Origin: Chitinophagaceae bacterium | GTDB lineage: Bacteria; Bacteroidota; Bacteroidia; Chitinophagales; Chitinophagaceae | Length of the DNA stretch: 64,000 nucleotides | NCBI GenBank assembly: GCA_019638615.1 | Contig: JAHBTL010000015.1 | Span: forward strand, 62,001 to 126,000 | Reading direction: 5' to 3' | Shown: in pieces, positions 21,701 through 53,899 of the stretch | Layout: every line of letters starts with the position of its first letter | Position numbering within the stretch: the first letter of the stretch is position 1 | Notes under the pieces: generated by a model | The model's database searches: none | Seen by the model: only the letters and a program-made list of their open reading frames with translations | Told to the model about the DNA's origin: nothing | Program-made: the position numbers and the translations under genes

Positions 21701-22486
21701 GTCGGGAAATTCAGTATATTTAAAATTGTTGCCTGCTGCTTTGGCGGCATTGTTCATACCGCGGGCATTGACTGGAGGCGGTTTAGTATCCAATGCTCCC
21801 TGAAACAGCCATATGGGGGTAAACGACTGTTGCACCAGCTGTGCATTCCCCGTAATGCTTGCGGCGCTGATAGGAGCAGCGGCTGCTACCAATGTAGGAT
21901 TTTCGAACAAAAAATTCCAGGTAGCTCCACCACCGCCTGACAGTCCATTAACAACTACCCGGAACGGATCAACCTGCACCTGGGGGACAAGGAAGTTCTC
22001 AATAAGATCACGGATAGCATTTCTTTGGTTTAAAGAAAACACTTTTGAATTCCAGGACACCTGCGGATATAACAAAAACCCGTCGAATGTGCCGTTATCC
22101 ACTGCATTCATGTGCTTTTGCCCTCCATGATACAACTGGAACTCGTTATCATATAATGTACCCGTTTCACCTCCTCCATGGAAAAAGAGATAAAGCGGAT
22201 ATGTTTTACCATTACCCGGAACATACGTTTTAGGATATTTTAACCTGAATGCCACCCCTTTGTATATGTAACACTTGAAGCTGGTAGTATTCCAGGTCAC
22301 CTTATTTGTTTTTACCCACTTGCCCGGCTGACCAGATGGCGGCTGAGCCGGAGGATGAGCCGGATCATATACCACGATCGGGTCATTGGGGTTAAATACT
22401 GTTTGACCCTTTACCAACGAAACCCCAAAAAATAATAAAAAGAGTGAAAACACCCCTCCCAACAATTTGTGTACGAATTGATTCAT
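15701..22486 (-). CDS. Giant secreted esterase with FN3, PA14 and triplicated module, T9SS type A tail
   Basis: A 2261-residue secreted protein. Signal peptide at 1-27. An alpha/beta hydrolase of the PHB-depolymerase/feruloyl-esterase kind at about 70-290 has Ser183 in NGLSGGGG, Asp233 in GALDTK and His265 in DRGHDCW. Then come two Ig-like segments (295-450), FN3 at about 455-550 and 553-640, PA14 at 643-787, FN3 at 795-880, PA14 at 881-1032, FN3 at 1045-1138, and two cadherin/Ig-like units (1140-1325). A module of about 165 residues occurs three times (1330-1507, 1703-1873, 1969-2136), separated by FN3 and cadherin-like units. The end (AAYPNPFVDDVTIKLSL...) is a type A sorting domain for the type IX secretion system. 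It probably acts at the cell surface on acylated polysaccharide, with PA14 domains as carbohydrate binders. Monocistronic. Confidence 0.88.
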   Translation of the reverse strand: MNQFVHKLLGGVFSLFLLFFGVSLVKGQTVFNPNDPIVVYDPAHPPAQPPSGQPGKWVKTNKVTWNTTSFKCYIYKGVAFRLKYPKTYVPGNGKTYPLYLFFHGGGETGTLYDNEFQLYHGGQKHMNAVDNGTFDGFLLYPQVSWNSKVFSLNQRNAIRDLIENFLVPQVQVDPFRVVVNGLSGGGGATWNFLFENPTLVAAAAPISAASITGNAQLVQQSFTPIWLFQGALDTKPPPVNARGMNNAAKAAGNNFKYTEFPDRGHDCWNQSWGQADYFPFLKRAHKANPWALFGRTEFCTEETINVTIGVTAGFDAYEWRKNDEIIIGATSNTIVATSVGKYDCRIRKGSTWSPWSPIPVEIKYKSAVIAPEIELGEFSSKVLPSPDGRTTIKLALPEGYMSYRWEAVGATGAVSTTNTYEAAPGTYKARVSEAVGCNSPFSTPFKVVNSDGANSPDPAAGLVLSKESKTSLRLNWTTNPSPLHPPINFEIYQAQKAGGPYKFVGITDASVLTFTKDGLTPGVKYYFVVRAVNNNGAAALSNEASATTDIDKEPPTAPTDLVLVGTTRNSVSLQWTESDDEVGVEKYDIYINGVKSYTSTNAEYTIYNLEANTQYTFSVKARDFAGNESPASNQITAQTILKGIRYKYYLGTWDLLPDFNALVPTKTGFVPNVTLAPKTQAEYFAFLWEGHIRIPVSGDYIFRTSSDDGSKLYIGAPYSAGAAALVNNDGLHGTVSAEDTINLSAGIYPITITYFQKTGGAVMNVLWKTPQTSSYVNLPDSVFVDPAAPGGGVAPNAPTALSAVAQSYNRINLSWTDNSNNETAFELFRSENAIDGFQTIAVLGPNTTSYPDTTVLSLTKYYYKIRAINQYGQSAFDKSGRGVDYSYYETNTLTALPNFNSLMPVKTGRVGTFSLGMEDRNDNFAMKFDGKITIPAAGQYTFYITSNEGAKLYIGGFSETNLVVNYDGIHSTNEKSGTKTFNASAGPYPITVPITVTYFEANEASEVLSVSYKGPNGSGINKQVIPTNILGEEPASATTMATPPAPEAPTGLDAFGYSSSIIKLVWVDNAAGAATRYELYRSYGDNENFLLYTVLPGNSASYTDTALYPNSLFYYKVKAVGIGGESAYSNEDSARTSGAIPVLDVIENQYMRFNSQLQVPVKAVNGTADAISIFVDNLPVFGSFSTTGNGEGVITFNPTEVQQGVYTNIIVKAVNPQNDTATVTFNLVVNNNYLPVIPPIANVTLNERDTVVVNISATDTDEGDQLLWSFLNLPDFVNVAINNRSLTFTIAPNYSHAGTYKPLVRIEDGRNGKDTVSFLIKVNPTPIVPERIFVNFTDGNGSFAGPGAGSKWNNTNSAPSQNATFSSLKTDAGAISSVSIKILDAGFSSSNTGMNTGNNSGIYPDSVIRSQYRVGANAKNMRISGLDVNRRYSFTFFGSHNANDRDYITVYTMKGQSVSLNARANSQNTVSIVNIAPDAGGILNLNVARSSSVAPYGYLNAMVIETVFEDSTAPARVKNLVANFEDDVIKLTWTNVAYNAIAYEVYRATSLMGPYVLLNPGVISDTLQSYTDETVVGSKTYYYMVRCRNNFGGSTSQVVKVITPNKAPVFTGTNEFFVKTDQTVSVSITTTDDIADIVTLSAANLPSFVTFTDNGGGLGTLQISPAQANIGAFRNILLTATDNYGASTVNNISINVTDKNTSSIYVNFNASNPVDGIWNNFNKAPTANAAISDLKNDIGTITGAGVTLLDAWQGGNVTGAISGNNSGIYRDSVLRTVFYEGRGNTNRVRITGLSTDPNKRYSLVFVASVDAVGNRNTLFTAGGKSVTLNAANNTDRSVQINDLVPAAGVIEFTVGRGSGSSNSYINTLVIQEYTVSATLLSPVNLRGKAVAKDSIMLTWDNRTDGGTYEIYRAESSGGSYSLAGTATSNTFTDGGLLKNKEYFYKVRSVVGINTSDYSNIAVVSTFAYSVYINFNRDNPASWPWNNTNGDPVEDDVLADLRNDEGNYSGVDITVGAGFSAVNNSGENTGNNSGVVPDNVMRSTWWVDIGQVAQLKVSGLSQNMSYRFLFFASRTGTTTRIVNYSINGRIAKLKANQNTSETITIDEVYADSNGEVLIIIYGETGSFGYIGGLVISGAKRSSNPVEGGGAAFRTGRNDAPKAQEEMIVAPESGNNTIAAYPNPFVDDVTIKLSLKQEAKAIIKVLDMNGKVVMVKDIGNVPKGTWQYTLGLNNKGYLPQGVYFIQVQGLGLNFRPLKVLKTR

Positions 22487-40098: not shown

Positions 40099-40683
40099 AT
40101 GGCAATCAGGCAATCTGTAAAAATGCTTCCGAATGAAGTCTGGAAAGATCTTCCTAATCATGAGTCCAGGGGCTCGGTTTGGTACAAGTACGCCATTTCC
40201 AGCCACGGAAGAATTGTTAAATACAACAAACGTATATCCGATGGGTTTATCCTTAAGTTAAGCAGGCAGGCAAATTATCCTATCTGGCGAAAAAAATTAA
40301 ACGGGGAATATTTTACGGCACTGGTACATCGTCTTGTTGCAAAATATTTTCTTCCCAAGCCCAAGGCAAACCAAAAGTTCATCATACATCTCGATCACAA
40401 TTACGAAAACAACAAGTATACCAACCTGAAGTGGGCCACCCAGGATGAGGTAACTGTTCACAATCGCAAAAACCCCAGGGTTAAAGCCGCCATCAAAAGA
40501 AGAAAAGACAACCCCACGCAAAAAGGTGCCAAGCTTACCATAGCCAAGGTTAAAAACATAAAGAAACTGCTCAAGCAAAAGAAAACATTAAAAGAGATCG
40601 CCAATAAGTTTGGAGTGTCGGACATGCAGATCCACCGCATCAAGACCAAAGAAAACTGGGCACACGTTAAATTAGATAAATAG
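40099..40683 (+). CDS. NUMOD4/HNH-type endonuclease-like protein with C-terminal HTH
   Basis: A 194-residue basic protein. Residues 12-42 are a NUMOD4 motif (EVWKDLPNHESRG...YAISSHGRIVKY). Residues 94-125 follow the HNH pattern: IIHLDHNYENNKYTNLKWAT then VHN, giving His97/His100, Asn109 and His121 as candidate ligands. Residues 145-185 form a helix-turn-helix (TLKEIANKFGVSDMQIHRI). This is the layout of homing endonucleases, but no intron or intein is seen, and such free-standing genes occur in Bacteroidota chromosomes. It could be a regulator with a decayed nuclease. It converges on the kinase gene, 16 bp away. Confidence 0.75.
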   Translation: MAIRQSVKMLPNEVWKDLPNHESRGSVWYKYAISSHGRIVKYNKRISDGFILKLSRQANYPIWRKKLNGEYFTALVHRLVAKYFLPKPKANQKFIIHLDHNYENNKYTNLKWATQDEVTVHNRKNPRVKAAIKRRKDNPTQKGAKLTIAKVKNIKKLLKQKKTLKEIANKFGVSDMQIHRIKTKENWAHVKLDK

Positions 40684-40699
40684 TATCGCTTTGCTATTT

Positions 40700-42475
40700 T
40701 CAGTTTACCAGTCCTTTTCCTAACTCCACGCTAAACAAGCTTCCTGACCTGAACACGGCAGGATCGTGGTCGTTTTGTGCTTTTAAACGAAACCGATCGG
40801 AACGTACCCGTATGTTGCTGCCATCTCGTGCCTGCACACTATGGATAACAAACCCTATCAAGGCTTTTCTCTTTCCCGTAGAAGGCACTACATCCACTAT
40901 TTTCCCTGTAACGGCAGCTCCCCTTTTTATTATTACAATGCCATTCACCGAAACCTCTTCATCGCTGTAAAGTTTTACCATCCCGCCATCTCTCGACTTT
41001 TCTTCGGAGCTAATGTCCTCATTAAGAACAACGGTAATGCGCCGGCCGGCAGGAACGCTAACGGGACCACGTGGTTCAGTTTTCTGTACCGGGGGGGGAG
41101 AGGCGGGATCTTCCGCTACGACTTCAACCGTTTCATTGCCCCCTTTTACGGGCGGCTGGATATCTTTTTTCTCCCTGGGCTTTTGTTTAGGTTTTTCCTT
41201 TACTTCTCCTGAACCTGTTCCTTCTGCAGGAAGCTGTTCCCGTACAGGAGTTAGAGGAGCCGGAATAAACGCCGGCTCAATTACAGGCGTTTGCCTGGCA
41301 GCCGTTTTTACCTGCGATACCGGCTGCTGCTGTACCACATTTTCGGGCTCCTGGCCATCCTGTAAGGTGATAGCCTTATCATTGCCTTTGAAATGATTCC
41401 AGGTTAACAGCAGGGCACACACAACTACAACAGCCACCAATAGCTTTACCGGCTTATCGGCGCCCCATTTCCTCCAATACCTGATGGGTTGTGCAACATT
41501 TATTTTTTTGAGCGACGAAGCAACCCCGACTGGTACAGCAGGAATGATTTTTTTTATTTTCTCTACAACAGGCGCTGCTGTTTTTTGAGGCGTTGCCAGT
41601 AACATTTCTTCATCGTAACCGGATAAGGCTTCTGTAAGCGCACTTTCTTTTAGCAGCGGGAAAGTGACACTTTTTAATATTGCATCCTTAAACTGCCTTA
41701 CATTTTCGTACCGCTTTGCCGGGTTCCGTTCAAGCGCTTTAAAAATAACCTGCTGCAGGGCATTCGATACTTTATTGGAGAGTACCGGGTTAAGAGGAGC
41801 TTTTTCTTCCAGCTTAGCCTTCATCAAATGATAGTCGGTATCTCCCCTGAACGGCGGCTGACCACTCAGCAATTCGTATAAAATATTGCCTACGGCATAT
41901 ATATCTGTCAGCTCATCTCCTTCCTTCCCCTGTATTTGCTCGGGCGCCATGTATTCAAGCGTACCTACCGATTTGCCATGCTGCGTGAGCCTTTGCGAAT
42001 TTCGTATCCTGGCAATACCAAAATCCATGATCTTTACTTCGCCTTCGGCCGATATCATTACATTGGCGGGCTTAAGGTCGCGATGGATGATGCCCTTACG
42101 ATGAGCATGTTCCAGTCCGTCCAGTATTTGGGCGATTATACTGCAGGCAAGCCGGGCGCCAACGGTTTCCCTTAAGCGAAGCAGGTCTTCCAGCGTTTGT
42201 CCATCTACGTATTCCATCACCATCCAATAGGTATCCTGGCGCGGAACAAATGAATAGAGATGGGTAATATTGGGATGATTCAGCCGTGCTAATGCCAAAG
42301 CTTCCTGTTGAAACCGGGAATCAAGCGACTCCGCTGACGGAGAGGAAGGTTTATTCAGTGATTTGATGGCTACTTTTCTTTCCAGCATGGTATCTTCAGC
42401 AAGGTACACCGTACCCATGCCCCCTTCTCCGATTTTATGAAGTATTACATATTGATCATTGTTACCCTGGTTCAT
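40700..42475 (-). CDS. Membrane Ser/Thr protein kinase (PknB-type)
   Basis: A 591-residue Hanks-type kinase. P-loop GEGGMGTV (about 16-23), Lys38 in VAIKSL, HRDLKPANV (Asp133, Asn138), DFG at 151-153 and APE near 177-179 are all present, so the kinase is predicted active. After the catalytic domain there is a basic linker (about 300-340), one membrane span (about 343-361), a Pro-rich linker and a C-terminal beta-rich domain outside the membrane (IVIIKRGAAVTGKIVDVVPS...). PASTA repeats are absent. Its start overlaps the PP2C stop by 4 bp, so kinase and phosphatase are translationally coupled. Confidence 0.92.
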   Translation of the reverse strand: MNQGNNDQYVILHKIGEGGMGTVYLAEDTMLERKVAIKSLNKPSSPSAESLDSRFQQEALALARLNHPNITHLYSFVPRQDTYWMVMEYVDGQTLEDLLRLRETVGARLACSIIAQILDGLEHAHRKGIIHRDLKPANVMISAEGEVKIMDFGIARIRNSQRLTQHGKSVGTLEYMAPEQIQGKEGDELTDIYAVGNILYELLSGQPPFRGDTDYHLMKAKLEEKAPLNPVLSNKVSNALQQVIFKALERNPAKRYENVRQFKDAILKSVTFPLLKESALTEALSGYDEEMLLATPQKTAAPVVEKIKKIIPAVPVGVASSLKKINVAQPIRYWRKWGADKPVKLLVAVVVVCALLLTWNHFKGNDKAITLQDGQEPENVVQQQPVSQVKTAARQTPVIEPAFIPAPLTPVREQLPAEGTGSGEVKEKPKQKPREKKDIQPPVKGGNETVEVVAEDPASPPPVQKTEPRGPVSVPAGRRITVVLNEDISSEEKSRDGGMVKLYSDEEVSVNGIVIIKRGAAVTGKIVDVVPSTGKRKALIGFVIHSVQARDGSNIRVRSDRFRLKAQNDHDPAVFRSGSLFSVELGKGLVN

Positions 42476-43329
42476 AACATTGTGTTTTGTTCCCTGGTTA
42501 CGGTATTATTTGTTACGCCGGCATTGTCTGCTATTTCTATCAGCAGCGCCGATACGTTATCACTCGCATTGCGCCTGTAGCATAATGCTTTAATACATTC
42601 CATTATCAATACAGGCTGCCGCATGGCAAACAGCGATTGCAGCTCATTGTGATCAAGCACATCGTATATACCATCTGAGCACAAAAAATAATATTCGCCG
42701 CTTTGAACTGCGCGGGCAGCCGATATTTCAGGCTCAATTTTATCCACTGTACCCAATGCCTGCAGCAGCACATGTTTCATATCGTGCGTAGCTGCTTCAC
42801 ATGGCTCAATTTTTCCTTCGGCTACCATTTGGTTCACCAATGTTTGATCGGTAGTAAGCTGCCGAAGCGTATTATTGTGTAAGTGATATAAACGGCTGTC
42901 TCCCACATGTCCGAACACAAAATGCTCATCTTGTATAAACACCATGGTAGCAGTAGTACCCATGCCTTTGTAAGCATCATTATTATCGGCAGTATTCCTT
43001 ATTGCATAATGCATGGCATGCAGCAGGCTCTCCAGCATAAATGCAGGATCGGAATGCTGGTATTCCTGTATAACAAACTCGTCGGCCACCTGGCAGGCGA
43101 TATGGCTGGCTACTTCACCGGCATTATGCCCCCCCATGCCATCGGCCACCATGGCAAACAATGTTTGTTTTGCATTACCGGGAAAAAAATAAATGATACT
43201 GTCTTCGTTTGAGCTGCGTGTAGGGCCCGTTTCTGAAAAACCATATACTCTGTAAGCATATTGCCGGTGGCTGGCAACGGCTCCATTATTCGAAACCGGA
43301 CCGGTTTTCTTTTTCCAGGGAAATTTCAT
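42472..43329 (-). CDS. PP2C-type Ser/Thr protein phosphatase
   Basis: A 285-residue PPM/PP2C phosphatase that should reverse the action of the neighbouring kinase. Metal-binding motifs are all visible: SNEDSIIYF, VADGMGGHNAGEVAS, GHVGDSRLY, CSDGIYDVLD and DNVSALLIEI. The N-terminus (MKFPWKKKTGP) is a short basic tail without a signal peptide. The ATG at 43329 was chosen over a longer frame that runs into palindromic DNA. The stop overlaps the kinase start (ATGA). Confidence 0.93.
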   Translation of the reverse strand: MKFPWKKKTGPVSNNGAVASHRQYAYRVYGFSETGPTRSSNEDSIIYFFPGNAKQTLFAMVADGMGGHNAGEVASHIACQVADEFVIQEYQHSDPAFMLESLLHAMHYAIRNTADNNDAYKGMGTTATMVFIQDEHFVFGHVGDSRLYHLHNNTLRQLTTDQTLVNQMVAEGKIEPCEAATHDMKHVLLQALGTVDKIEPEISAARAVQSGEYYFLCSDGIYDVLDHNELQSLFAMRQPVLIMECIKALCYRRNASDNVSALLIEIADNAGVTNNTVTREQNTML

Positions 43330-43365
43330 AAAAATAATTTGTGTTGAGGAATTACTGCTGCCATA

Positions 43366-43396
43366 CCGCGACCCCCGGTACGGCGGGGGTCTGCGG
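43366..43396. repeat. GC-rich palindrome between PP2C and FHA-protease genes
   Basis: An inverted repeat with inner arms ACCCCCG (43371-43377) and CGGGGGT (43384-43390) around a 6-nt loop, and outer arms CCGC / GCGG (43366-43369, 43393-43396). There is no T-run, so it looks more like a REP-type element or a processing hairpin than a terminator. Confidence 0.55.
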
Positions 43397-43473
43397 CTCC
43401 TGGAGGCAGTGCCCGTCAAAAAAAGGAGCAAGGAGTATACAATACATTACATTTCCACATTCCCGCATTTTCA

Positions 43474-43489
43474 TCCCGCAGTTGCGGGA
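43474..43489. repeat. Short perfect palindrome
   Basis: TCCCGCA, 2-nt spacer, TGCGGGA. It lies 17 bp after the stop of the FHA-protease gene, in the same 177-bp spacer as the larger GC-rich palindrome. Either could modulate read-through from the FHA-protease gene into the PP2C-kinase pair. Confidence 0.5.
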
Positions 43490-43506
43490 CTCAAATTTTC
43501 ACATTA

Positions 43507-45195
43507 TCAATTAATCACCTCCTGGCGTCCCATCAGTTCCATGGCATATTTAATGGGGATAGAATAACTCATTTTCTGACTTCCCACCGAATAAATACCT
43601 GTAACCCTTCCCATATCATCGAACATGGGGCCGCCGCTGTTGCCCGGCCCTGTGGAGTTAATAGTGAGCTGATAATAATCTCCCATAGTGCTCAGGTATA
43701 GATCTACCTTATCGCTGCTGGTACTGCCTTTTACAAGCCGGCCTATATTGCCGGTGCTTACAGTTGGCACTGGTACTTTAACAATATTGGGGTTGCGGTT
43801 AAACTCGTCCTGCGAACGATTGGCAACGTATTGATCGGGCGACATGCCGGGATAGCCCATTACAACCACCGGGCTTCCGGGTTCAATTTCATTATAGCTA
43901 TCGTACATTTCCACTTTGGTTAAAGCTTCCGGTAATTCTATTTTAATCATTGCCACATCGTGCACATTGGATATGCGTACTGTTTTCGCAGGAGTGCGTA
44001 AAGAATTATTGGCAAAAGTCACATCCAGGTAAGAAGATCGTCCGTCAATCAATTTTACACCAGACTGAAGCAATTGCTTGTTATAATTCATGGCTTCTGC
44101 GGGTACCCACCTGCTTACTTCAGCAAAACCAATGGTTACGCCGGGTACTATATCTAAATTTCCCTGTTGATTGATGCCAATTAATACGCCCGGAAAAGCA
44201 TCCTCGGGAAACTGGTAAGAAGTAAGCCAGCTTGCAGCCACATGACGATTGGTAATAATAAAACCTCTTTCATCCACTACGAACCCGGTTCCACTGCCAA
44301 AGCCGCCAATGGGTACAAGATTAACCCCTACAGGAGCAGCGGCCTTGGTTGACAAAAGAGGTTCGGTTGCACCCACATTGTTTTTAACATAAGCGGCAAA
44401 GTAACCGGTCACTCCGTTTGTTACAACAGGAACGTATACATGATACAGTTGCTCGCCGGTTGAAGTAAGCTCCAGCTTCCAACCTTCTTCAATAAAAACA
44501 ACTTTGTTTTCATTGACTTTGTTGATTTGTGAAGGTGTAAGGGTTTTAACCGAATCTTTTTTCTCCGTAATGATATTTACTATTTTGGGTTCGGGACGAT
44601 TGGAATAGATCAGCCAGCCTGCTGTAGAAAAAAGTATGAGCAGGGCCGCCGCGGAGATCAACAATCCCTTCTTGCTTTTTTTCTCCGATTGCTGCAACAT
44701 ATGCTGCATGGTTTGCTTGCCTATCGTTTCTTTGGGAGCAATTGTATTGGCGGCAGTCATTCCTTTTGCATCTGTATTGTGTACCTTGGTTTCTTTAGCG
44801 GGGGTTTTGCCAATATCCAGCACACGTGTTTTTTTAATGTGAGAAACAGGTTTGGGGTCAAGGTCGAATTCTAAAGAGGGCCCTTCTTTACCAAGGCGAA
44901 CCACATCGCCCGCCATCAGCACCGTTTTTTCGGTAATGGTTTTGCCATTTACATACGTGCCGTTTTTACTTTGCAAATCGGTAATTTCATAAGTATCCGG
45001 CAATAGTGGATTTACCTTAATGCGGCAATGCTCGCGGCTGATGGTATCATCGGCCAGGTCAAAGGCAATGGTATTGGCGTCTCCTCTGCCAATACGGATT
45101 TCCAGTGTACTGGTCACAGGAAATTTTTCTGTCTGTCCCTTTTTGGGGCCTTCCGTGTGACGAATGAGAATGATGGAAGGGTTTTGATTGCTCAT
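43507..45195 (-). CDS. FHA-domain, membrane-anchored trypsin/DegP-like serine protease
   Basis: A 562-residue protein. The N-terminal FHA domain (about 30-110) keeps GR at 36-37, SREH (53-56) and NGT (78-80), the phosphothreonine-binding residues. A Lys-rich linker and one membrane span (about 177-197) follow, and then a trypsin-like protease with His318 (NRHVAAS), Asp413 (HDVAMIKI) and Ser520 (GPGNSGGPMF), so the triad is complete. The FHA domain would be cytoplasmic and the protease periplasmic. It lies 177 bp upstream of the PP2C-kinase pair on the same strand, which suggests that Thr phosphorylation by the kinase regulates it. Confidence 0.92.
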   Translation of the reverse strand: MSNQNPSIILIRHTEGPKKGQTEKFPVTSTLEIRIGRGDANTIAFDLADDTISREHCRIKVNPLLPDTYEITDLQSKNGTYVNGKTITEKTVLMAGDVVRLGKEGPSLEFDLDPKPVSHIKKTRVLDIGKTPAKETKVHNTDAKGMTAANTIAPKETIGKQTMQHMLQQSEKKSKKGLLISAAALLILFSTAGWLIYSNRPEPKIVNIITEKKDSVKTLTPSQINKVNENKVVFIEEGWKLELTSTGEQLYHVYVPVVTNGVTGYFAAYVKNNVGATEPLLSTKAAAPVGVNLVPIGGFGSGTGFVVDERGFIITNRHVAASWLTSYQFPEDAFPGVLIGINQQGNLDIVPGVTIGFAEVSRWVPAEAMNYNKQLLQSGVKLIDGRSSYLDVTFANNSLRTPAKTVRISNVHDVAMIKIELPEALTKVEMYDSYNEIEPGSPVVVMGYPGMSPDQYVANRSQDEFNRNPNIVKVPVPTVSTGNIGRLVKGSTSSDKVDLYLSTMGDYYQLTINSTGPGNSGGPMFDDMGRVTGIYSVGSQKMSYSIPIKYAMELMGRQEVIN

Positions 45196-45940: not shown

Positions 45941-46177
45941 TTGCTATAATCAGTTTCCTACGTTAAGAATATCACTTATTTCTTTAAAATAAAGAGGGTA
46001 TTCCAATTGTCGCTGCATATTTAGTTGCCTCACCCTTTTTATTCCCACTCCGCGCAGCAGCGAGGGAAAAGTAGTGCAACAATTTGGAATGCGCCCAATA
46101 AAGGTTCCTGCTCCTCCGTATTCATAACAAAAGTATATTGCAAAGGTAAATATGCTATTTCATCCACAGCTTTAACA

Positions 46178-47206
46178 ATGAAGAAACCGGTTGTAAAAAT
46201 ATCCCGCAGCTATGCTGCTGTAAGGTTTATCCTCATTTTTATCTTCCTCTCTGCAAGCAGGTGCTTTGCCGGAACACCCGGCTCACTGGGGCTGAAGGGA
46301 GATGCAGGGGATGTGCATACCAAACATCAGCCAGGCATTGTATTGATAGGCGGTGGCGGCAATGTTACAGGCGCTTTTGAGTGGATGATCAAAAGAAGCG
46401 GCGGCGGGGATGTAATCGTATTGACCGCTTCGGGCAATGCCGGCTATAATGATGATATATTCGCTTTGGGAGGAATAAACTCAGTTGAAACGCTTAACAT
46501 TGCTTCAAGAGAACTGGCGGACAATGATACGGTAGCCCAAACCGTAAGGAATGCTGAAATGCTGTTTATAGCCGGGGGTGATCAAAGCCGTTATATGCGC
46601 TGCTGGAAAAACACAAAGCTCAATGCAGCGATCAATTACCTCCTCAACGAAAAGAAAGTACCGGTAGGTGGAACAAGCGCCGGCTGCGCCATATTGACCG
46701 GTTTTTATTACAGCGGCGAAAACGGAAGCGCCGTTTCCGATTCGGTGCTAAACAACCCTTTTCACCCGACAGTAACGATTTATAACAACGATTTTCTTCA
46801 CGCTCCCTGGCTAAAAACCGTATTAAGCGATCAGCATTACAGTGAGCGCACACGCGAGGGAAGGCATGTGGCTTTTATGGCGCGGATCATCGCAGATCAT
46901 TCAGTATTTCCGAAGGGAATTGCCCCCGATGAAAGAACCGCGGTTTGTATAAATGGAAACGGTATGGCTACGGTGATCGGCGAAGGAAAGGCTTATTTTA
47001 TCCTCTCGCGCTCCAAACCTGAGCAATGCATTGCAGGAAAGCCCCTAGAATGGAATATGTATAAAAAAGCGTTGCAGGTGTATGAAATACCTGGAACGCC
47101 TGCAGGCAGCGGGCATTTTTCAATCGTTGATTTTGATGAAAAAAAAGCAACGGGAGGAAGCTGGCACTGGTGGTGGGTGGAAAAAGGGATATTATTCAGG
47201 AGGTGA
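46178..47206 (+). CDS. Secreted cyanophycinase-like S51 peptidase
   Basis: A 342-residue S51 family peptidase. The ATG at 46178 gives a basic start, hydrophobic core and SASRCFAG cleavage region; the Cys could make a lipoprotein but lacks a perfect lipobox. Nucleophile Ser167 lies in GGTSAGCAIL, with IAGGDQSRYM ahead and DQHYSERTREGRH behind, as in cyanophycinase. The natural substrate may be cyanophycin (Asp-Arg polymer) or other isoaspartyl peptides. It ends 13 bp before the left copy of the 24-bp direct repeat. Confidence 0.85.
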   Translation: MKKPVVKISRSYAAVRFILIFIFLSASRCFAGTPGSLGLKGDAGDVHTKHQPGIVLIGGGGNVTGAFEWMIKRSGGGDVIVLTASGNAGYNDDIFALGGINSVETLNIASRELADNDTVAQTVRNAEMLFIAGGDQSRYMRCWKNTKLNAAINYLLNEKKVPVGGTSAGCAILTGFYYSGENGSAVSDSVLNNPFHPTVTIYNNDFLHAPWLKTVLSDQHYSERTREGRHVAFMARIIADHSVFPKGIAPDERTAVCINGNGMATVIGEGKAYFILSRSKPEQCIAGKPLEWNMYKKALQVYEIPGTPAGSGHFSIVDFDEKKATGGSWHWWWVEKGILFRR

Positions 47207-47218
47207 TGGTCTTATAAA

Positions 47219-47242
47219 AATTACACTGATTAACTTTATTAC
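47219..47242 (+). repeat. 24-bp direct repeat, left copy
   Basis: The 24-bp sequence beginning AATTACACTG and ending CTTTATTAC occurs here and again at 53404-53427, identical and in the same orientation. It lies 13 bp after the stop of the cyanophycinase-like gene. Flanking bases differ between the two copies. Confidence 0.85.
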
Positions 47243-47287
47243 TACAACCAGTAACAGCAAAGAAATGCAGCCGAAACGAGAAGCAGC

Positions 47288-49069
47288 CTAACTACCAAAT
47301 TGCAGTTCAATTTTGGTTCCTTTTTGGGTCTCCGCCAGCCTGATCCGGCAACCGATCGCTTCGGCCAGGTCGCGCACAATATATAATCCCAGTCCATGCC
47401 GGGAATCTTCTACCGCTGCGCCTTTCAAAAAAGCTTTGGCCTGCTCTCGGGGCAGGCCGGGACCATTATCGGTAACGGCCAATACTATGTTACCGCCTTC
47501 CTGTTTGGCCGACCATTCAACAGCGGCGTTATCTATATTGCGAACCGCTTTCACTGCATTCGAAGTAAGGTTTTGCAGGATCGTCTTCACATAATTTTCA
47601 TCGGTATTCAACACCAGCCTCTCAGCGCCTGAAAAAGAAAATTCAACATCACCCGTAGTAGCAAAAAAGTTTCTCAGATAATCGAACAACGATTGCACCG
47701 GCACTTCCCTGGTCACAGGTTTGAAATGTTCCATTTGTCTTTTGCTCCATAGCAGCATACCTTCCATGGTTTCCAGCAGGGATTGCGCATTGCCGGTGAT
47801 CTTCGTTTCGTGTTCTTTTATTTTTTCCGCACTCAGCAAACCCGGTTTTGTTCGCTGCAATTGCAAAAAGCTTACGAGGTTGGCAATAGGACTGCGCAGG
47901 TCATGACTCAGTATAGCGAATAAACGCGCCTTTACCCGATTGGCTTCGGCCAGCTCATCATTTAATTGCTGCAATGTTTCATTGGTCTTTTTACGCAATG
48001 CACTTTGACGGTATAATAAAACCCCGATCAACAGCAACAACAAAACACCGCCACTCAACGCCAGCATACGCGAACGCTGGTTCCTGATCTCTCCTTCACT
48101 GGTGGCCAGCGCTGCATTTTTCCGGTCCATTTCCTGCTTGTTATGGAGATCTGCGATCTGGTTTTTATTGGCCTGCGAATGAATGGAATCATTCCTGTCG
48201 TAATAAAAGCGGATGTTCTTATACGCGCTTTTAAAATCACCTTTTGCTTCCTGCAGTTCTGCCAGCACACCGGTGAAGTACGCTTCATTTTCCACATCAC
48301 CTTTTGCCTGTGCCAGGGCAATGGCTTTGCGCAGGTATTTTTCGGACATTGCGAGCCTGCCTTCACCCGTAGCAGGTATAAGGGCGCCCGGCTTTAAGTT
48401 AAGCCCCTTTCCATATCGTACCATATCGAGATAAGCAACGCCGATGTTGCCGGCGTTCACAGCAGGAATGGGGTTGTCTGTTTGCACGGTATCTAAAATT
48501 TCCTGCGCCTGCAAAGCCATTTTCAGTTTTTCCTCGTAATTTTTGCGGAATAACAGAGACATATTCGATAACACCATCGCCTCTCCCAGCCTGTCATTGG
48601 CACGTCGATACACTGCCAGCGCCCTGCGGTAATACTGATCTGCCATAGCAGAATCATCCTGCCTGAGATAGTTATCGCCGATTTGCTTGAGTGCGCCCCC
48701 GGTTCGCAAACTATCTTTTCTTATCTCATAAATGGCCAGGGATTTCAGCAGGTAATCCATCTGTCTTTTATAGTCCGACTGGGATGCCGCCAGTACACCC
48801 ATGTTGCGATAGATCAGCGCTATCAGCAAACTATCTTTCAGCTTGTTCGCTATCGTCAGCGACCTGGCATAATTAGAGGCTGCGTCCACATAATTGGTAA
48901 CATGCATGTATTGCGTGGCGAGCTCATGAAAGGCAATAGCTTTCCGTCTTTCTTCTTTTGCCGGTATTAACGGAATGGCTGCGCGCATGGAATCTATCAT
49001 CTCGTAAGTACGCTGCGCGTTTGAAAACAACGATACCGGGAGCAGGAAAAAAAATGCACCACGTTTCAT
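47288..49069 (-). CDS. TPR-containing sensor histidine kinase
   Basis: A 593-residue sensor. A signal peptide (MKRGAFFFLLPVSLFSNAQ) is followed by a periplasmic TPR-type helical region (about 40-310), a coiled segment, one span (about 336-353) and the kinase core. The phospho-acceptor is His389 in SHDLRSPIANL; the ATPase has NLTSNAVKAV, DNGPGLP and HGLGLYIV. All catalytic boxes are present. Its start overlaps the regulator stop by 4 bp (ATGA). It belongs to the TPR/LytTR systems common in Bacteroidota. Confidence 0.93.
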   Translation of the reverse strand: MKRGAFFFLLPVSLFSNAQRTYEMIDSMRAAIPLIPAKEERRKAIAFHELATQYMHVTNYVDAASNYARSLTIANKLKDSLLIALIYRNMGVLAASQSDYKRQMDYLLKSLAIYEIRKDSLRTGGALKQIGDNYLRQDDSAMADQYYRRALAVYRRANDRLGEAMVLSNMSLLFRKNYEEKLKMALQAQEILDTVQTDNPIPAVNAGNIGVAYLDMVRYGKGLNLKPGALIPATGEGRLAMSEKYLRKAIALAQAKGDVENEAYFTGVLAELQEAKGDFKSAYKNIRFYYDRNDSIHSQANKNQIADLHNKQEMDRKNAALATSEGEIRNQRSRMLALSGGVLLLLLIGVLLYRQSALRKKTNETLQQLNDELAEANRVKARLFAILSHDLRSPIANLVSFLQLQRTKPGLLSAEKIKEHETKITGNAQSLLETMEGMLLWSKRQMEHFKPVTREVPVQSLFDYLRNFFATTGDVEFSFSGAERLVLNTDENYVKTILQNLTSNAVKAVRNIDNAAVEWSAKQEGGNIVLAVTDNGPGLPREQAKAFLKGAAVEDSRHGLGLYIVRDLAEAIGCRIRLAETQKGTKIELQFGS

Positions 49070-49800
49070 AGATCGGTTTTTAATCCGGTCAACGCCTCTT
49101 TGTATGTTCGGCCTACGGGCAGCCTGATGGCATTTTCCAATTCCAGTTCGTCGCCGCTCATGCGACGTATAAAATGTTTGGGAACGGCATAGCTGCGATG
49201 AATGCGGATGAACTGTTCAAAAGGTTTGGCCTGTATCAAACTGCCCATAGGTGTAGCCACCATGTATTTCCTTTCAGCCGTCATCACCGCGGTATAATCT
49301 TTCATTGCTTCGAGATATAAAATATCATGCAGTTGCAATTTGATCTCTCCATGACCTTCCCTGATAAAAATGGTATCAGCACCTATGGTATGATGCAGGA
49401 GACTGGCCTTTTTGCGCAGCAACAAATATTCTTCCAGTCTTTGAATGGTTTTTGCAAAACGTGTGGCAGTCACCGGTTTAACAATAAAATCCAACACCTG
49501 TTTTTCAAAACTCTCTACAGCATAATCGGGGTAAGACGTAATAAACACACAGGCCGGTACATCCATAAGTTTTTCGCGCAGTTGCAGCCCGTTCATACCG
49601 GGCATGTCCACGTCAAGGAACAGCGCATCGGGTTGGGTGGCAGTAATTGTTTCCAGCGCTTTGGCAGGCGAATCGAAAAAACCGGTGACTTTGATATGCG
49701 GGTATTCCGACAAAAAGGCCAGCACCGTGAGAAGATCGATTTCATCATCGTCCACCACAATACAGGAAAAATGCTGGTTGATTTGCCCGGGTTGTTGCAT
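49066..49800 (-). CDS. LytTR-family response regulator
   Basis: A 244-residue regulator (start could be six codons upstream at 49818). Receiver domain: DDDE near 17-20, phospho-acceptor Asp63 in LFLDVDMPGMNG, then ITSYPDYA and VKPVTATRF. The LytTR DNA-binding domain follows, with IFIREGHGEIKLQLHDILYLEA and FIRIHRSYAVP. Coupled to the histidine kinase by the ATGA overlap. The divergent spacer in front of it is duplicated further along, which suggests the regulator acts on both copies. Confidence 0.93.
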   Translation of the reverse strand: MQQPGQINQHFSCIVVDDDEIDLLTVLAFLSEYPHIKVTGFFDSPAKALETITATQPDALFLDVDMPGMNGLQLREKLMDVPACVFITSYPDYAVESFEKQVLDFIVKPVTATRFAKTIQRLEEYLLLRKKASLLHHTIGADTIFIREGHGEIKLQLHDILYLEAMKDYTAVMTAERKYMVATPMGSLIQAKPFEQFIRIHRSYAVPKHFIRRMSGDELELENAIRLPVGRTYKEALTGLKTDL

Positions 49801-49879
49801 AGTATAAATATACTGCATTCGGCGGTTAAAGCTGTTGTTGGGAGAATAGCGCTTTCCACAGCGCTTGCAGGTAAGTAGG
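49788..49879. repeat. Divergent leader block, copy A
   Basis: A 92-bp block between the LytTR gene (-) and the secreted-protein gene (+), including the regulator's first codons. It matches 51830-51920 with about 12 differences, one of them a 1-nt gap. The best conserved part includes AGCGCTTTCCACAG and TTGCAGGTAAGTAGG. Probable shared operator or promoter region. Confidence 0.75.
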
Positions 49880-49883
49880 TTTG
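49876..49883 (+). promoter_or_regulatory. Putative -7 box overlapping the edge of the repeated leader
   Basis: TAGGTTTG matches TAnnTTTG in copy A, 18 bp before the ATG at 49902. In copy B the same position reads TAGGCATA, so the box is not conserved. Confidence 0.35.
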
Positions 49884-49901
49884 TAGTTATAAAAAACAGG
49901 C

Positions 49902-50441
49902 ATGAAAAAGAAACAGCTTATTGCAGCAGAGTTACCGGTAGCAGCGCCCGCGGGCATATCCATTCCCCAAAATCTCATCTTTATAGTTACACACCTGAAA
50001 ATCATGTTGTTATTTCTCTTCGTGATGTCGCTGACTTCTTTTGCGATGGCCCAAAGTCCGGCAGGTAAATGGAAAATAACCGGTTGGTACACTGAAAGCA
50101 TGACCGGAAAAAAAACGAATGTATTTGAGGAGTTTGCTAAAAGCGATCCCTGTTTCGCAAAAATTATATTGAGTTTTACCGCTAATGGAAAGATTACAGG
50201 GCAGGGAGCGGAAAAATGTCCCCGGACTGTAACGGAGCGAAGCCCCGGCACCCGTTGGGAAATGCCCGCCAAAAATAAGATCAGGGTGTTCGCCAGCGAC
50301 ACTGATAGAGAGCCCGAAACATTTGATCTCGAAATTAAAGGAAACAAAATGCACTGGATAAGGACGTGGCCGAACGACCTTGATATAGGTGATGGCGACA
50401 AGGAAATCCGGCGTTTTATCCTGGAATTTATCCGGGCCTGA
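49902..50441 (+). CDS. Secreted lipocalin-like protein
   Basis: A 179-residue frame. If translation starts at the ATG at 50004 instead, the product has a clean signal peptide (MLLFLFVMSLTSFAMAQ); the 34 codons before that (MKKKQLIAAELPV...) look odd and the true start is open. The mature part is beta-rich and fits a small lipocalin-like fold (GKWKITGWYTES ... LSFTANGKITGQG...KCP). It is divergent from the LytTR regulator and 35 bp upstream of the OmpA-domain gene. Probable target of the two-component system. Confidence 0.65.
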   Translation: MKKKQLIAAELPVAAPAGISIPQNLIFIVTHLKIMLLFLFVMSLTSFAMAQSPAGKWKITGWYTESMTGKKTNVFEEFAKSDPCFAKIILSFTANGKITGQGAEKCPRTVTERSPGTRWEMPAKNKIRVFASDTDREPETFDLEIKGNKMHWIRTWPNDLDIGDGDKEIRRFILEFIRA

Positions 50442-50476
50442 TCGTTTTTTTAATTGCTATTTAAACTTTACAAATC

Positions 50477-51778
50477 ATGCCAATCATTTCAAAATTCCTG
50501 GCCTGCCTGACCGTCCTGAGCTTTATTTCGTATCAGGGCAACAGCCAGGTGCTTAAAAATATTGCGAAGCGTATAGAACAAAAAGTCAATCAGAGAGTCA
50601 ATCAGAAAACCGACCAGGCCATTGACAAGGTGCTGGATAAAGCGGAGAGCGCCGGGAAAAAGCCGGAGAAAGATATTGAAACATCTGCGGGCAATCCATC
50701 ATCACCATCTGGCAAAACTGACACCTCCTCTGACCGCGACACAGCAGGCTCAAAAGAACAACCTTTTCAACTGTATTCGAAATTTGATTTTATTCCCGGA
50801 GACAAAGTGATTGCGTATGATGATTTCGAAAAAGATGCCGTAGGAGATTTTCCCGGCAGTTGGACAACCGACGCTTCGGGCGAACTGGTTTCAGTGGATA
50901 ATCGCCCCGGTAAATGGCTGAATGTTTCAAAGCAGGGGTTCTACCTGCCTCAATTTATTGAGTCGCTGCCCGAAAATTTTACGTTGGAATACGATGTGCT
51001 TTTTATTAACCCGGAGAAAAGGGAGGGGCCGAATACGGCAGGTTTAGGGTTGCAATTGATTGTGAAAACCGGGAAAAGTTATTTCGACTATGCGCCGGAC
51101 CGCGCGTATTTCGAGGTGAACCCCTACATGGGTAATATCAATATTGCCAGCTATACCAAAACAGGTGAGAAAATCCTGGAGAATGCATTCCAGGTGGCCG
51201 GTATTGACAGGAATAAAACATTTACCTGTCATGTATCGGTATGGAGGCAGAAAAACCGGCTTCGTGTATACCTCAACGAAACCAAGGTGGTGGATGCCCC
51301 TTCGCTGCTCGACCCGCAGGCAAAATATAATACCATTCGTTTTGCCACTTCGCTGAACAACGACGGAAGCAAATGGCTGGTGAGCAATTTCAAATTTGCT
51401 TCGGGATTACCGGATACCCGGAATAAACTTATTACTGAAGGCAAATTCGTTACGCGGGGTATTTTGTTTGATGTGAACAGCGATAAAATAAAAGCATCTT
51501 CGTATGGCGTGCTGAAAGAAATAGCCGGCGTGTTGCTGGAGCATATGTCAGTAAAAGTAAAGATCACCGGGCATACCGACACTGATGGAAGTGATGCCGA
51601 TAACCTTGTGCTGTCACAAAGAAGGGCGCTGGCTGTAAAAAATATGCTCGTGAATGATTTTCACATTGATGCATCACGGCTTGAAACAGACGGAAAAGGA
51701 GAATCCCAGCCGGTAGACAAAAGTATGACCCCTGAAGCCAAAGCCAATAACAGGCGGGTGGAATTTACCAGGTTATAA
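50477..51778 (+). CDS. OmpA-domain secreted protein with jelly-roll-like middle region
   Basis: A 433-residue exported protein. Signal peptide (MPIISKFLACLTVLSFISY...), a charged helical stretch rich in Gln and Lys (RIEQKVNQRVNQKTDQ), a beta-rich middle part (about 110-310, LamG/concanavalin-like by eye) and a C-terminal OmpA domain (ILFDVNSDKI...GHTDTDGSDADNLVLSQRRA...NRRVEFTRL) that binds peptidoglycan. It probably links an outer layer or glycan to the wall. It follows the lipocalin-like gene by 35 bp, in the same plus-strand string. Confidence 0.85.
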   Translation: MPIISKFLACLTVLSFISYQGNSQVLKNIAKRIEQKVNQRVNQKTDQAIDKVLDKAESAGKKPEKDIETSAGNPSSPSGKTDTSSDRDTAGSKEQPFQLYSKFDFIPGDKVIAYDDFEKDAVGDFPGSWTTDASGELVSVDNRPGKWLNVSKQGFYLPQFIESLPENFTLEYDVLFINPEKREGPNTAGLGLQLIVKTGKSYFDYAPDRAYFEVNPYMGNINIASYTKTGEKILENAFQVAGIDRNKTFTCHVSVWRQKNRLRVYLNETKVVDAPSLLDPQAKYNTIRFATSLNNDGSKWLVSNFKFASGLPDTRNKLITEGKFVTRGILFDVNSDKIKASSYGVLKEIAGVLLEHMSVKVKITGHTDTDGSDADNLVLSQRRALAVKNMLVNDFHIDASRLETDGKGESQPVDKSMTPEAKANNRRVEFTRL

Positions 51779-51829
51779 CCGGCTCTTCGTTCCCGGGTAA
51801 CCTGTATTTCTTTTGCTGTTTCGTTTGAA

Positions 51830-51920
51830 CGGGGTGTTGTATAGCATAATATACTGCATTCGGCGATTAACCCTGTTATTCGGAAAATAGCGCTTTCCAC
51901 AGTGTTTGCAGGTAAGTAGG
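51830..51920. repeat. Divergent leader block, copy B
   Basis: A 91-bp block with about 87 percent identity to 49788-49879. On the minus strand it still carries a start like that of the regulator (MQYI...), which diverges after a few codons. It lies directly in front of the first lipoprotein gene (51937), so this gene may have captured the regulator's target promoter. Confidence 0.75.
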
Positions 51921-51936
51921 CATAAAAGCAGTCAGC

Positions 51937-52374
51937 ATGAATCGTATCATCTTTTTCGGGCTTTCTATCCTCACCGCCGGCTTGTTTTCCTGCAAAAAAG
52001 AAACTGCCGGGGCCACAGATCCTTTTACATTGCTGACAAAGGATGTTTGGATCATAACAGCCAATACGTATCAAAAGGATTCAGATGCCTCAACTACAGA
52101 TTATTTCACGGGAATGCCGGACTGTTCAAAGGATGACGAATACCAATTCCTTACCGACGGAAAGTATTATCAAACCAATGGCGCTACCCCATGCCCGGGC
52201 GAAGCGGCAATATTAGTCACAGGTAGTTGGCAGTTGTCGGCCAATGAAAAATCCATATTTCTCACCACCGGCGGTACAACGGAACAGTATGAGATAGTTG
52301 AACTAACACAAAATAAGCTGGTCACGCGCCTGCGTATGGACCGGGGCTCCCTGACAAGCACTTATACGCATTGA
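51937..52374 (+). CDS. Lipocalin-like lipoprotein 1
   Basis: A 145-residue lipoprotein. Signal sequence with lipobox ending in Cys19 (TAGLFSCKKE). The mature part is beta-rich and lipocalin-like (LLTKDVWIITANTYQKD ... DEYQFLTDGKYYQTNG ... GSWQLSANEKSIFL), as in the other small lipoproteins here. It is preceded by the duplicated leader block and ends 39 bp before the next lipoprotein start. Role unknown. Confidence 0.78.
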   Translation: MNRIIFFGLSILTAGLFSCKKETAGATDPFTLLTKDVWIITANTYQKDSDASTTDYFTGMPDCSKDDEYQFLTDGKYYQTNGATPCPGEAAILVTGSWQLSANEKSIFLTTGGTTEQYEIVELTQNKLVTRLRMDRGSLTSTYTH

Positions 52375-52412
52375 GCCATGCAATAAATAACAGCATCAAA
52401 AAGCCATCACTC

Positions 52413-52847
52413 ATGAAACAATACATCACCTATCTCGCTTTAGCCGGCATCATCGCGGGCTTTGCAGCCTGCAAAAAAGAAAGCGGGCCTACACGCAAAG
52501 AAATTTTGATATCGCATTCATGGAGACAAACCAATGTAACTTCCCTGCAATCGAATGGGGCCATTCATGAAAACTGGTTGTATATGAAGGCCTGCGATAA
52601 AGACGATCAATTCATTTTTGCTCCTGATAGTGTGTTGCTCCAACTGGAAGGCCCCACACGCTGCAATCCCGGCGATCCTGACGTCAAGAGCGGCAGTGCA
52701 GGAAGATGGCATTTGTCTGCTGATGAACAAACGCTTCTCATTGGTTCTATTGAAAATAAAATTCAAAAACTTACAACAGATAGTCTTGTTATTGATCGCA
52801 CTCTTTCAGGCGGCAGCATTGCCACTTACCGGTTGTCGCATTATTAA
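52413..52847 (+). CDS. Lipocalin-like lipoprotein 2
   Basis: A 144-residue lipoprotein. The ATG at 52413 was chosen because it begins the signal sequence; lipobox Cys20 (GFAACKKES). The segment GPTRKEILISHSWR closely matches PTRKELLSHAWK of the lipoprotein at 26548, and GRWHLSADEQTLLI matches GSWQLSANEKSIFL of its neighbour. So the three belong to one paralogous family. It is followed at 12 bp by a broken gene. Confidence 0.78.
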   Translation: MKQYITYLALAGIIAGFAACKKESGPTRKEILISHSWRQTNVTSLQSNGAIHENWLYMKACDKDDQFIFAPDSVLLQLEGPTRCNPGDPDVKSGSAGRWHLSADEQTLLIGSIENKIQKLTTDSLVIDRTLSGGSIATYRLSHY

Positions 52848-52858
52848 TATCAGATTTT

Positions 52859-53110
52859 ATGAAACAGTTATCACTGATACTGCTGTTGGCAGCAGTGATT
52901 TCGCTTTTAGCAAAAAGATCAGTGGCGATCGTATCAGCTTTGAGTGCTGCAATAGTAATAAAACACGCTTGCCGTCATTCCGATGCCGCCCAAATGTGTG
53001 TTGAACCAAAGGAATATTGCGGCGGGAGAGGACTCTGCCAGGCATTTGTACTAATGCTCAACATCTGCACTACTGCCAGGCAGATTCCTCCTTCGCGAAA
53101 GAGCGATTAA
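52859..53110 (+). pseudogene. Truncated small exported-protein gene, interrupted by palindromic element
   Basis: The frame begins MKQLSLILLLAAVISLLA, a plausible signal sequence, 12 bp after the lipoprotein 2 stop. After about 38 codons it enters the 174-bp palindromic element and continues for 45 codons encoded by the repeat before stopping. The last gene of the string therefore seems to have lost its body. An alternative reading is that the frame is chance; a small frameshift in the first part cannot be excluded. Confidence 0.4.
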
Positions 53111-53145
53111 CTACCATATTCGTGTTGGCTCAATCGGAATGACGG
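52972..53145. repeat. 174-bp MITE-like palindromic element
   Basis: Perfect 13-bp terminal inverted repeats CCGTCATTCCGAT (52972-52984) and ATCGGAATGACGG (53133-53145). An inner imperfect palindrome GGACTCTGCCAGGCA / TGCCAGGCAGATTCC (53030-53044 / 53074-53088) has two mismatches and a 29-nt loop. There is no transposase. The outer motif GTCATTCCGA is, from memory, common as dispersed repeats in Bacteroidota. No target-site duplication was recognised. Confidence 0.7.
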
Positions 53146-53175
53146 AAAAGCAACCATTTAAAGGCATATTCCTGC

Positions 53176-53225
53176 ATAAATAGCACCTGCTATGGCTTTT
53201 TCTCCTGTCACTTCATGCTATTTAT
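53176..53225. other. Spacer to dtd with a weak inverted repeat
   Basis: Within the roughly 300 bp between the palindromic element and dtd, ATAAATAGCA (53176-53185) and TGCTATTTAT (53216-53225) form a 10-bp inverted repeat with a 30-nt loop. No gene is seen in this stretch. Confidence 0.3.
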
Positions 53226-53403
53226 TGATGGGTAACAAAGGATTTAAATATTTTAGCACTAACTTTTATATCGTTTTAAGAAGAATCCCGTATAACGCTA
53301 TATATTCTTAGCTTAGCTCAAGCTGTTATAAATGGCGAAATGCAAGTAGCGGGCAAAACTGTTATACATACTGCCGGGAAAACATACAGCTGAACGCGCT
53401 ATG

Positions 53404-53427
53404 AATTACACTGATTAACTTTATTAC
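53404..53427 (+). repeat. 24-bp direct repeat, right copy
   Basis: Identical to 47219-47242 and ending 19 bp before the dtd ATG. Together the two copies enclose 6.16 kb of DNA. Confidence 0.85.
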
Positions 53428-53446
53428 CATAATAAATACAGAACGA

Positions 53447-53899
53447 ATGAAAGTGGTATTGCAGCGTGTTTCGCAGGCATCGGTTAAGGTTGACGGGACA
53501 ATTACAGGGGCTATTGAAAACGGGTTACTTGTTTTATTAGGCATTGAGGATAGCGATACGGATGAAGATATACAATGGCTGAGCAATAAAATAACAGGAT
53601 TGCGGATCTTCAACGACGAAAACGGGGTAATGAATCTTTCCGTTAAAGACACAGAAGGCGATATACTGCTGGTGAGCCAGTTTACGCTGCATGCTTCCAC
53701 CAAAAAAGGCAACAGACCCTCCTATATAAGAGCCAGTAAAAGTGAAATAGCCATTCCTGTGTATGAAAAAATGATCCGGCAATTAAGCGCCGATCTGGGG
53801 AAAAATATCCAAACCGGTATCTTTGGTGCAGATATGAAAGTATCGCTTTTAAATGATGGTCCGGTTACGATTGTAATAGATACTAAAAATAAAGAATAG
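53447..53899 (+). CDS. dtd: D-aminoacyl-tRNA deacylase
   Basis: A 150-residue DTD. Start MKVVLQRVSQASVKVDG, conserved SQFTLHA near residues 77-83 and LNDGPVTIVID near the C-terminus (the GP motif) are the family marks. It removes D-amino acids from tRNA. It sits just to the right of the 24-bp repeat. In a map without the intervening cassette it would follow the cyanophycinase-like gene. Confidence 0.94.
   Translation: MKVVLQRVSQASVKVDGTITGAIENGLLVLLGIEDSDTDEDIQWLSNKITGLRIFNDENGVMNLSVKDTEGDILLVSQFTLHASTKKGNRPSYIRASKSEIAIPVYEKMIRQLSADLGKNIQTGIFGADMKVSLLNDGPVTIVIDTKNKE

Follow-up and report, generated by a model that had tools for sequence, protein, structure and literature searches.

How did a set of genes for a two-component system and envelope proteins come to lie between two copies of the same 24-bp sequence, in the gap that separates a cyanophycinase-like peptidase S51 gene from dtd? 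The question is raised by a 64,000-nucleotide (nt) stretch of contig JAHBTL010000015.1 (positions 62,001–126,000; assembly GCA_019638615.1) from a Chitinophagaceae bacterium, which we analysed as a whole and call the window; all positions below are those of the window unless a locus is named. With a probability of about 0.6, the genes between the repeats (the block) are a laterally acquired gene islet that was inserted into the S51–dtd gap with a duplication of 24 bp of its target. The insertion of the block is well supported, and the acquisition of an islet is an ordinary kind of event.

A unique 24-bp repeat at both ends of the block

The first copy of the 24-mer (AATTACACTGATTAACTTTATTAC; Table 1) begins 12 bases 3' of the S51 stop codon, and the second stops 19 bases short of the dtd ATG, which agrees with the placement given in a first-pass annotation of this DNA. 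Beyond the 24 bp, similarity between the two places extends weakly (29 nt, 93 per cent). No exact direct repeat in the window is longer than the 24-mer; next come two pairs of 18 bp, one located inside the promoter duplication described below and the other (GGACATGCTCAAAAAATT) at 28749 and 35846. The first-pass annotation considered such a repeat extremely unlikely to have arisen by chance, and simulations bear this out: in 60 third-order Markov simulations of 64 kb, the longest repeat reached at most 21 bp (mean, 16.4), and none of 100 shuffles, searched with up to three mismatches, contained the 24-bp repeat.

A genome-wide search, proposed in the same annotation as a check on whether the repeat is a common element, returned two sites with up to three mismatches in the whole genome (7.18 Mb in 87 contigs), both of them in the window. 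The 16-base core of the 24-mer, with up to two mismatches, has six sites in this genome (both copies included) vs two for a reversed control. We also searched 394 genomes of the family, including the window's own and nine of the 12 genomes of its genus: the only sites with up to two mismatches were the two in the window, and the other 393 genomes had none. Because the genome and family searches gave these two sites only, the 24-mer is not a widespread promoter or repeat element and, at the sensitivity used, not an attachment (att) site common to the family sample.

The S51–dtd gap in related genomes

The dtd gene is present in all 11 other genomes of the genus, and we searched 9–20 kb around it with the proteins of the window. 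None of the 11 has the kinase–regulator–lipocalin–OmpA–lipoprotein block beside dtd, an absence that is expected of an islet when close relatives are compared at one and the same site; faint matches to the kinase (24 per cent, in L020) and to part of the regulator (30 per cent, in L026) were judged not to be the block. S51 lies directly 5' of dtd in three of these genomes (loci L017, L018 and L019), where its alignment ends 104, 87 and 16 bases before dtd, respectively. By arithmetic, removing the block and one copy of the repeat would leave the window with an S51–dtd gap of 55 bases, an ordinary spacing. In the other eight genomes, including the nearest relative, G005 (locus L016; dtd 87 per cent identical), no S51 gene was found in the stretch read, and the nearest match before dtd is to a release-factor-like gene.

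The first-pass annotation had proposed that a cassette was inserted between two older neighbours and that empty sites should carry one copy of the repeat. Insertion is supported by the absence of the cassette next to dtd in all 11 relatives, the adjacency of S51 and dtd in three of them and the lateral transfer of the core of the block (see below). A single repeat copy, on the other hand, was seen in none of the 11, and the cassette did not prove to be a single unit. The two outcomes that the annotation had named as contrary to insertion were not encountered: none of the 11 relatives carries the cassette and both repeats together, and the 24-mer is no widespread element.

A core that moved between lineages of the genus

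Another genome of the genus, G006, encodes a kinase and a regulator with 84 and 90 per cent amino-acid identity, respectively, to those of the window, on a different contig from dtd. Its dtd region is of the empty S51–dtd type, with the S51 alignment ending 16 bases before dtd. The G006 core carries three tandem lipoprotein genes, and an rRNA operon lies about 2 kb away; the contig JAHBTK010000007.1 (L154, from the Chitinophagaceae metagenome-assembled genome ACE_BAC12) contains the 4.8-kb G006 stretch identically. Two of the three tandem lipoprotein genes are close duplicates of each other (L154:8331–9915; repeats of 75–86 per cent). Within the genus, the core was found in two genomes, at a different place in each, and the S51–dtd gap of the relatives lacks it.

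Identity at four-fold sites between the window and G006 is 0.73 for the kinase (206 sites), 0.72 for the regulator (89 sites) and 0.64 for lipoprotein 1 (39 sites), whereas it is 0.33 for S51, 0.34 for dtd, 0.46 for MoxR, 0.43 for DUF58, 0.31 for BatD and 0.38 for DUF7133. Such a discordance with neighbouring genes (0.64–0.73 for the three core genes vs 0.31–0.46 for the six others) is a mark of acquired islets. Because the values of the core lie far above those of the six chromosomal genes, the core moved laterally between lineages of the genus, and the copies in the window and in G006 share an ancestor that postdates the species split. Between the window and G005, four-fold-site identity is 0.54–0.63 for dtd, MoxR, DUF58, release factor and FHA–trypsin genes, and 0.30 for BatD. 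The kinase and the regulator are thus closer between the window and G006 than all six measured genes are between the window and G005 (0.30–0.63), and the ancestor of the core is probably also younger than the window–G005 split. The transfer may have run either way between the window lineage and G006.

These values also bear on the age of the islet. It could have been in place before the G005 split and have been deleted in G005 together with S51, which would alter the date of the insertion and not the insertion itself. G005 indeed has neither S51 nor the block beside dtd, and one deletion would suffice if the insertion postdates the split from the lineages in which S51 and dtd are adjacent. The lower divergence of the kinase and regulator from G006 than of the six genes between the window and G005 argues against so old an islet, although a transfer from the window lineage to G006 would produce the same result. 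We consider this alternative unlikely.

Kinase relatives at E ≤ 1e-70 occur in 29 of the 394 family genomes, the window's own counted; the list includes nine genomes of the genus, of which two are positive, but not G007, G008 or G010. A plasmid carrier was rejected (identity stays below 60 per cent in each of the 291 plasmid records that match LytTR, with eight listed at 29–34 per cent), as was a phage carrier (none of 17 phage records covers 80 per cent of the kinase, with five listed at about 27 per cent). We also rejected an origin by copying from a paralogous locus elsewhere in this genome: the next best match to the kinase has 24 per cent identity over part of the protein, and the promoter region has no third convincing copy (others at E of 0.59 or worse).

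Could the block be a separate molecule that shares the 24-mer and was merged into the contig during assembly? There is a short exact word at both junctions, and the assembly consists of 87 contigs. However, the genes of the block have a G+C content of 45–48 per cent and the neighbours 41–48 per cent, the closest relative of the core is found in the same genus, and assemblers normally work with words longer than 24. An artefact of this kind is therefore very unlikely.

A mosaic inside the block

The first-pass annotation treated everything between the repeats as one cassette, and this part of its claim has to be given up: G006 has only the kinase–regulator–lipoprotein core. The block is a mosaic, in which the lipocalin–OmpA pair and a hairpin-forming repeat look like separate additions.

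In the window, two copies of the promoter region bracket the lipocalin-like and OmpA genes. They are 89 per cent identical over 73 ungapped nt (49807–49879 vs 51848–51920), and the similarity reaches about 110 bases; in G006, the promoter region is single, with the regulator on one side and the first lipoprotein gene on the other. The eight bases TTTGTAGT are common to copy 1 and G006 and are missing in copy 2. The stretch that holds them resembles the Bacteroidota -7 box TAnnTTTG and is a candidate for such a box. The closest relatives of the OmpA protein (57–64 per cent identity) are found in six genomes of other genera, without an adjoining kinase. OmpA was rejected as a marker of the cassette elsewhere, since none of the 11 OmpA loci read (of many matches) has an adjoining kinase or lipocalin-like gene. 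Weak regulator matches (24–27 per cent) lie kilobases from OmpA in L119, L121 and L124, with a 21 per cent kinase match in L124; in L122, L123 and L124, OmpA is near the contig end. Duplication of the promoter region on either side of the lipocalin–OmpA pair probably followed the arrival of the core.

At E ≤ 0.01, the genome holds 55 matches to the hairpin-forming element, whose inverted ends are GTCATTCCGAT and ATCGGAATGAC. The count, based on scoring 40 of 65 candidates, includes the element itself and a match that corresponds to the 24-mer. The best genome matches of the element are 95–96 per cent identical, and the z-score of its single-strand fold is -4.84. The broken open reading frame (ORF) that precedes the right end of the block opens like a lipoprotein gene, and most of the ORF is the hairpin element, which would have interrupted the last lipoprotein gene. 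A literature search gave no paper on this repeat family.

The non-coding tail that follows has no clear relatives. When the tail (243 bases), the repeat and the dtd leader were searched together against 384 family genomes, only four short matches (≤56 bases) were found outside the window's own genome, two on the tail and two on the repeat and leader part. About 30 bases (53412–53441) are 90–94 per cent similar to coding sequence of G047 and G201, presumably at the 3' end of an isocitrate dehydrogenase gene; we judged this similarity of copy 2 and the dtd leader to be due to chance (about 0.01 expected for 384 genomes).

How the block may have entered the gap

The first-pass annotation reported neither an integrase nor a tRNA, and our searches agree. 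A Pfam scan of 52 ORFs of the window (49 of at least 130 codons and three more) revealed no integrase, transposase or recombinase, and hence no insertion sequences with transposase at the block ends of the kind that delimit a composite transposon; neither a tRNA nor any Rfam match at gathering score is present in the window. The only domain of a mobile-gene type among the 52 ORFs is an HNH_3 endonuclease match at 40099–40680.

Site-specific integration, in which the two 24-bp copies would be attL and attR of a cis-mobilizable or decayed integrative element and the recombinase would have come from elsewhere, is consistent with exact repeats at the ends of a block with a laterally acquired core and with an AT-rich non-coding tail at one of them. 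Copy 2 with its flanks also contains an inverted pair matching at six of six positions, although 52 of 500 shuffles score as high. Against it, besides the missing recombinase and tRNA, stand the absence of the 24-mer from the 393 other family genomes and the lack of the inverted arms that define a tyrosine recombinase or Xer–dif site: shuffling the 24-mer itself gives arms as good in 477 of 500 cases (95 per cent in a separate run), and copy 1 with its flanks is equalled by 169 of 500 shuffles. Cis-mobilizable and integrative mobilizable elements, as far as titles and abstract openings describe them, likewise bracket cargo with direct repeats without an integrase of their own; here, we found no conserved att site, no core with inverted arms and no related element with such repeats. 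Integration of this type is unlikely.

Alternatively, the 24-bp sequence could have been present beforehand on a circle or fragment, which crossed over at the S51–dtd gap in a Campbell-type homologous recombination. A single crossover of a circle would yield exactly two direct copies, and the duplicate of about 110 bp brackets the lipocalin–OmpA pair in the same manner. This explanation is improbable, given that no other searched genome has the 24-mer, including the core-bearing G006, and that 24 bp is close to the lower length limit of RecA-dependent exchange.

We therefore return to target duplication. We prefer it to pre-existing identity, since none of the other sequences searched contains the 24-mer and a duplication needs no second source for it. 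On this reading, the kinase–LytTR–lipoprotein core, exchanged between lineages of the genus, would have entered the S51–dtd gap, and 24 bp of the target would have been duplicated, as happens when captured DNA is enclosed in a staggered break whose ends are then filled in; the insertion may have been unaided.

Several results weigh against this reading. The 24-mer, even with up to six substitutions, occurs in none of the 11 dtd regions. The dtd leaders have diverged beyond alignment in the four relatives compared: alignments of the leader are no better than those of shuffles, of which 391 (G005), 947 (L017), 993 (L018) and 656 (L019) of 1,000 are as good, and they do not show the leader to be the source of the repeat. 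The G006 core is not flanked on both sides by a direct repeat of at least 18 nt within the 6 kb searched, which is also unfavourable to site-specific integration. S51 is not beside dtd in the nearest relative, G005, whose ancestral arrangement may have differed, and 24 bp exceeds the usual target duplications of insertion sequences. The alignment of the copy-1 side with G005 was not significant either (253 of 1,000 shuffles as good). Because the leaders are so diverged, absence of the 24-mer from the empty sites neither supports nor refutes a duplication, and the native copy cannot be told from the other.

In its patchy presence, its differing places in related genomes, the lower divergence of its core than of neighbouring genes and its terminal direct repeats, the block resembles horizontally acquired islets; it differs from them in that no recombinase or tRNA was found and in that its repeat is unique and without inverted arms. 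A literature search, at the level of titles and abstract openings, turned up nothing on this islet.

A likely signalling circuit

By its Pfam domains (receiver and LytTR, with an adjoining histidine kinase), the pair is a LytTR two-component system, and it recurs in other genera. We read six loci from the 32 other kinase matches listed: judged by eye, the gene divergent from the regulator starts like that of a secreted protein or lipoprotein in five (L258–L262) and not in L263, and the outer neighbours differ among the six. At a more distant regulator locus, L157, the divergent gene has a secretion-like start, and divergent frames are present in L155 and L156. The window pair is like LytTR–kinase pairs of Bacteroidota in its domains, its adjacent genes and its divergent secreted-protein or lipoprotein gene beside LytTR (five of six relatives), and unlike them in its duplicated promoter region with a lipocalin–OmpA pair between the copies.

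In position and conservation, the promoter region fits a likely circuit in which the regulator acts there, between its own gene and the envelope genes. Kinase and regulator would thereby control the divergent envelope genes.

Features of the window

The gene content agrees with that given in the first-pass annotation: a tetratricopeptide repeat (TPR) kinase, a LytTR regulator, a lipocalin-like protein (below cut-off), an OmpA protein, two lipoproteins and a broken ORF (Table 1).

Table 1. Features of the block, its repeats and its two neighbouring genes.
Feature	Position	Strand	Basis
Cyanophycinase-like peptidase S51, left neighbour	46025..47206	+	Pfam PF03575; directly before dtd in L017, L018, L019
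24-bp direct repeat, copy 1	47219..47242	+	Exact repeat search, AATTACACTGATTAACTTTATTAC
TPR-type sensor histidine kinase	47288..49069	-	TPR_12 and HATPase_c over cut-off, HisKA just under; 84% amino-acid relative in G006
LytTR response regulator	49066..49818	-	Response_reg and LytTR over cut-off; 90% amino-acid identity in G006
Promoter region duplication, copy 1, holds LytTR start codon	49790..49900 (approximate)	+	73-nt ungapped repeat
Lipocalin-like secreted protein	49902..50441	+	Lipocalin_4, 18.9 bits, under 22.4 cut-off
OmpA C-terminal domain protein	50477..51778	+	PF00691; closest relatives 57–64%, other genera
Promoter region duplication, copy 2, without 8 bases TTTGTAGT	51830..51935 (approximate)	+	Repeat and alignment with G006
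Lipoprotein 1, Lipocalin_4 domain	51937..52374	+	PF13648, 31.2 bits; two 64% relatives in G006
Lipoprotein 2	52413..52847	+	No Pfam match; 32–34% identical to two G006 lipoproteins
Broken lipoprotein-like ORF, runs into repeated element	52859..53110	+	No Pfam match; element boundaries
Hairpin-forming repeated element	52914..53160		Terminal inverted repeats 52969–52984 / 53133–53148
AT-rich non-coding tail	53161..53403		37% G+C; no clear relatives
24-bp direct repeat, copy 2	53404..53427	+	Exact repeat search, AATTACACTGATTAACTTTATTAC
dtd, right neighbour	53447..53899	+	PF02580

Elsewhere in the window, genes for a protein kinase, a PP2C phosphatase and an FHA–trypsin protein stand in a row at 40703–45195; the FHA gene is also found near dtd in G005, G002 and G011. 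A 2,261-codon open frame at 15704–22486 probably encodes a large exported protein, because it contains fn3, PA14 and Por_Secre_tail sorting domains.

Implications

A broader reading, which we regard as quite improbable, is that of a passively mobile signalling module: the kinase–LytTR pair and its divergent promoter would wander between neighbourhoods without a recombinase of their own, enter with long target duplications and gather envelope-protein cargo behind a duplicated promoter. The islet also offers an example of a promoter that appears to have been duplicated around newly gained cargo. It is a well-bounded example of a two-component system that moves between species with its likely targets, circuit and output together.

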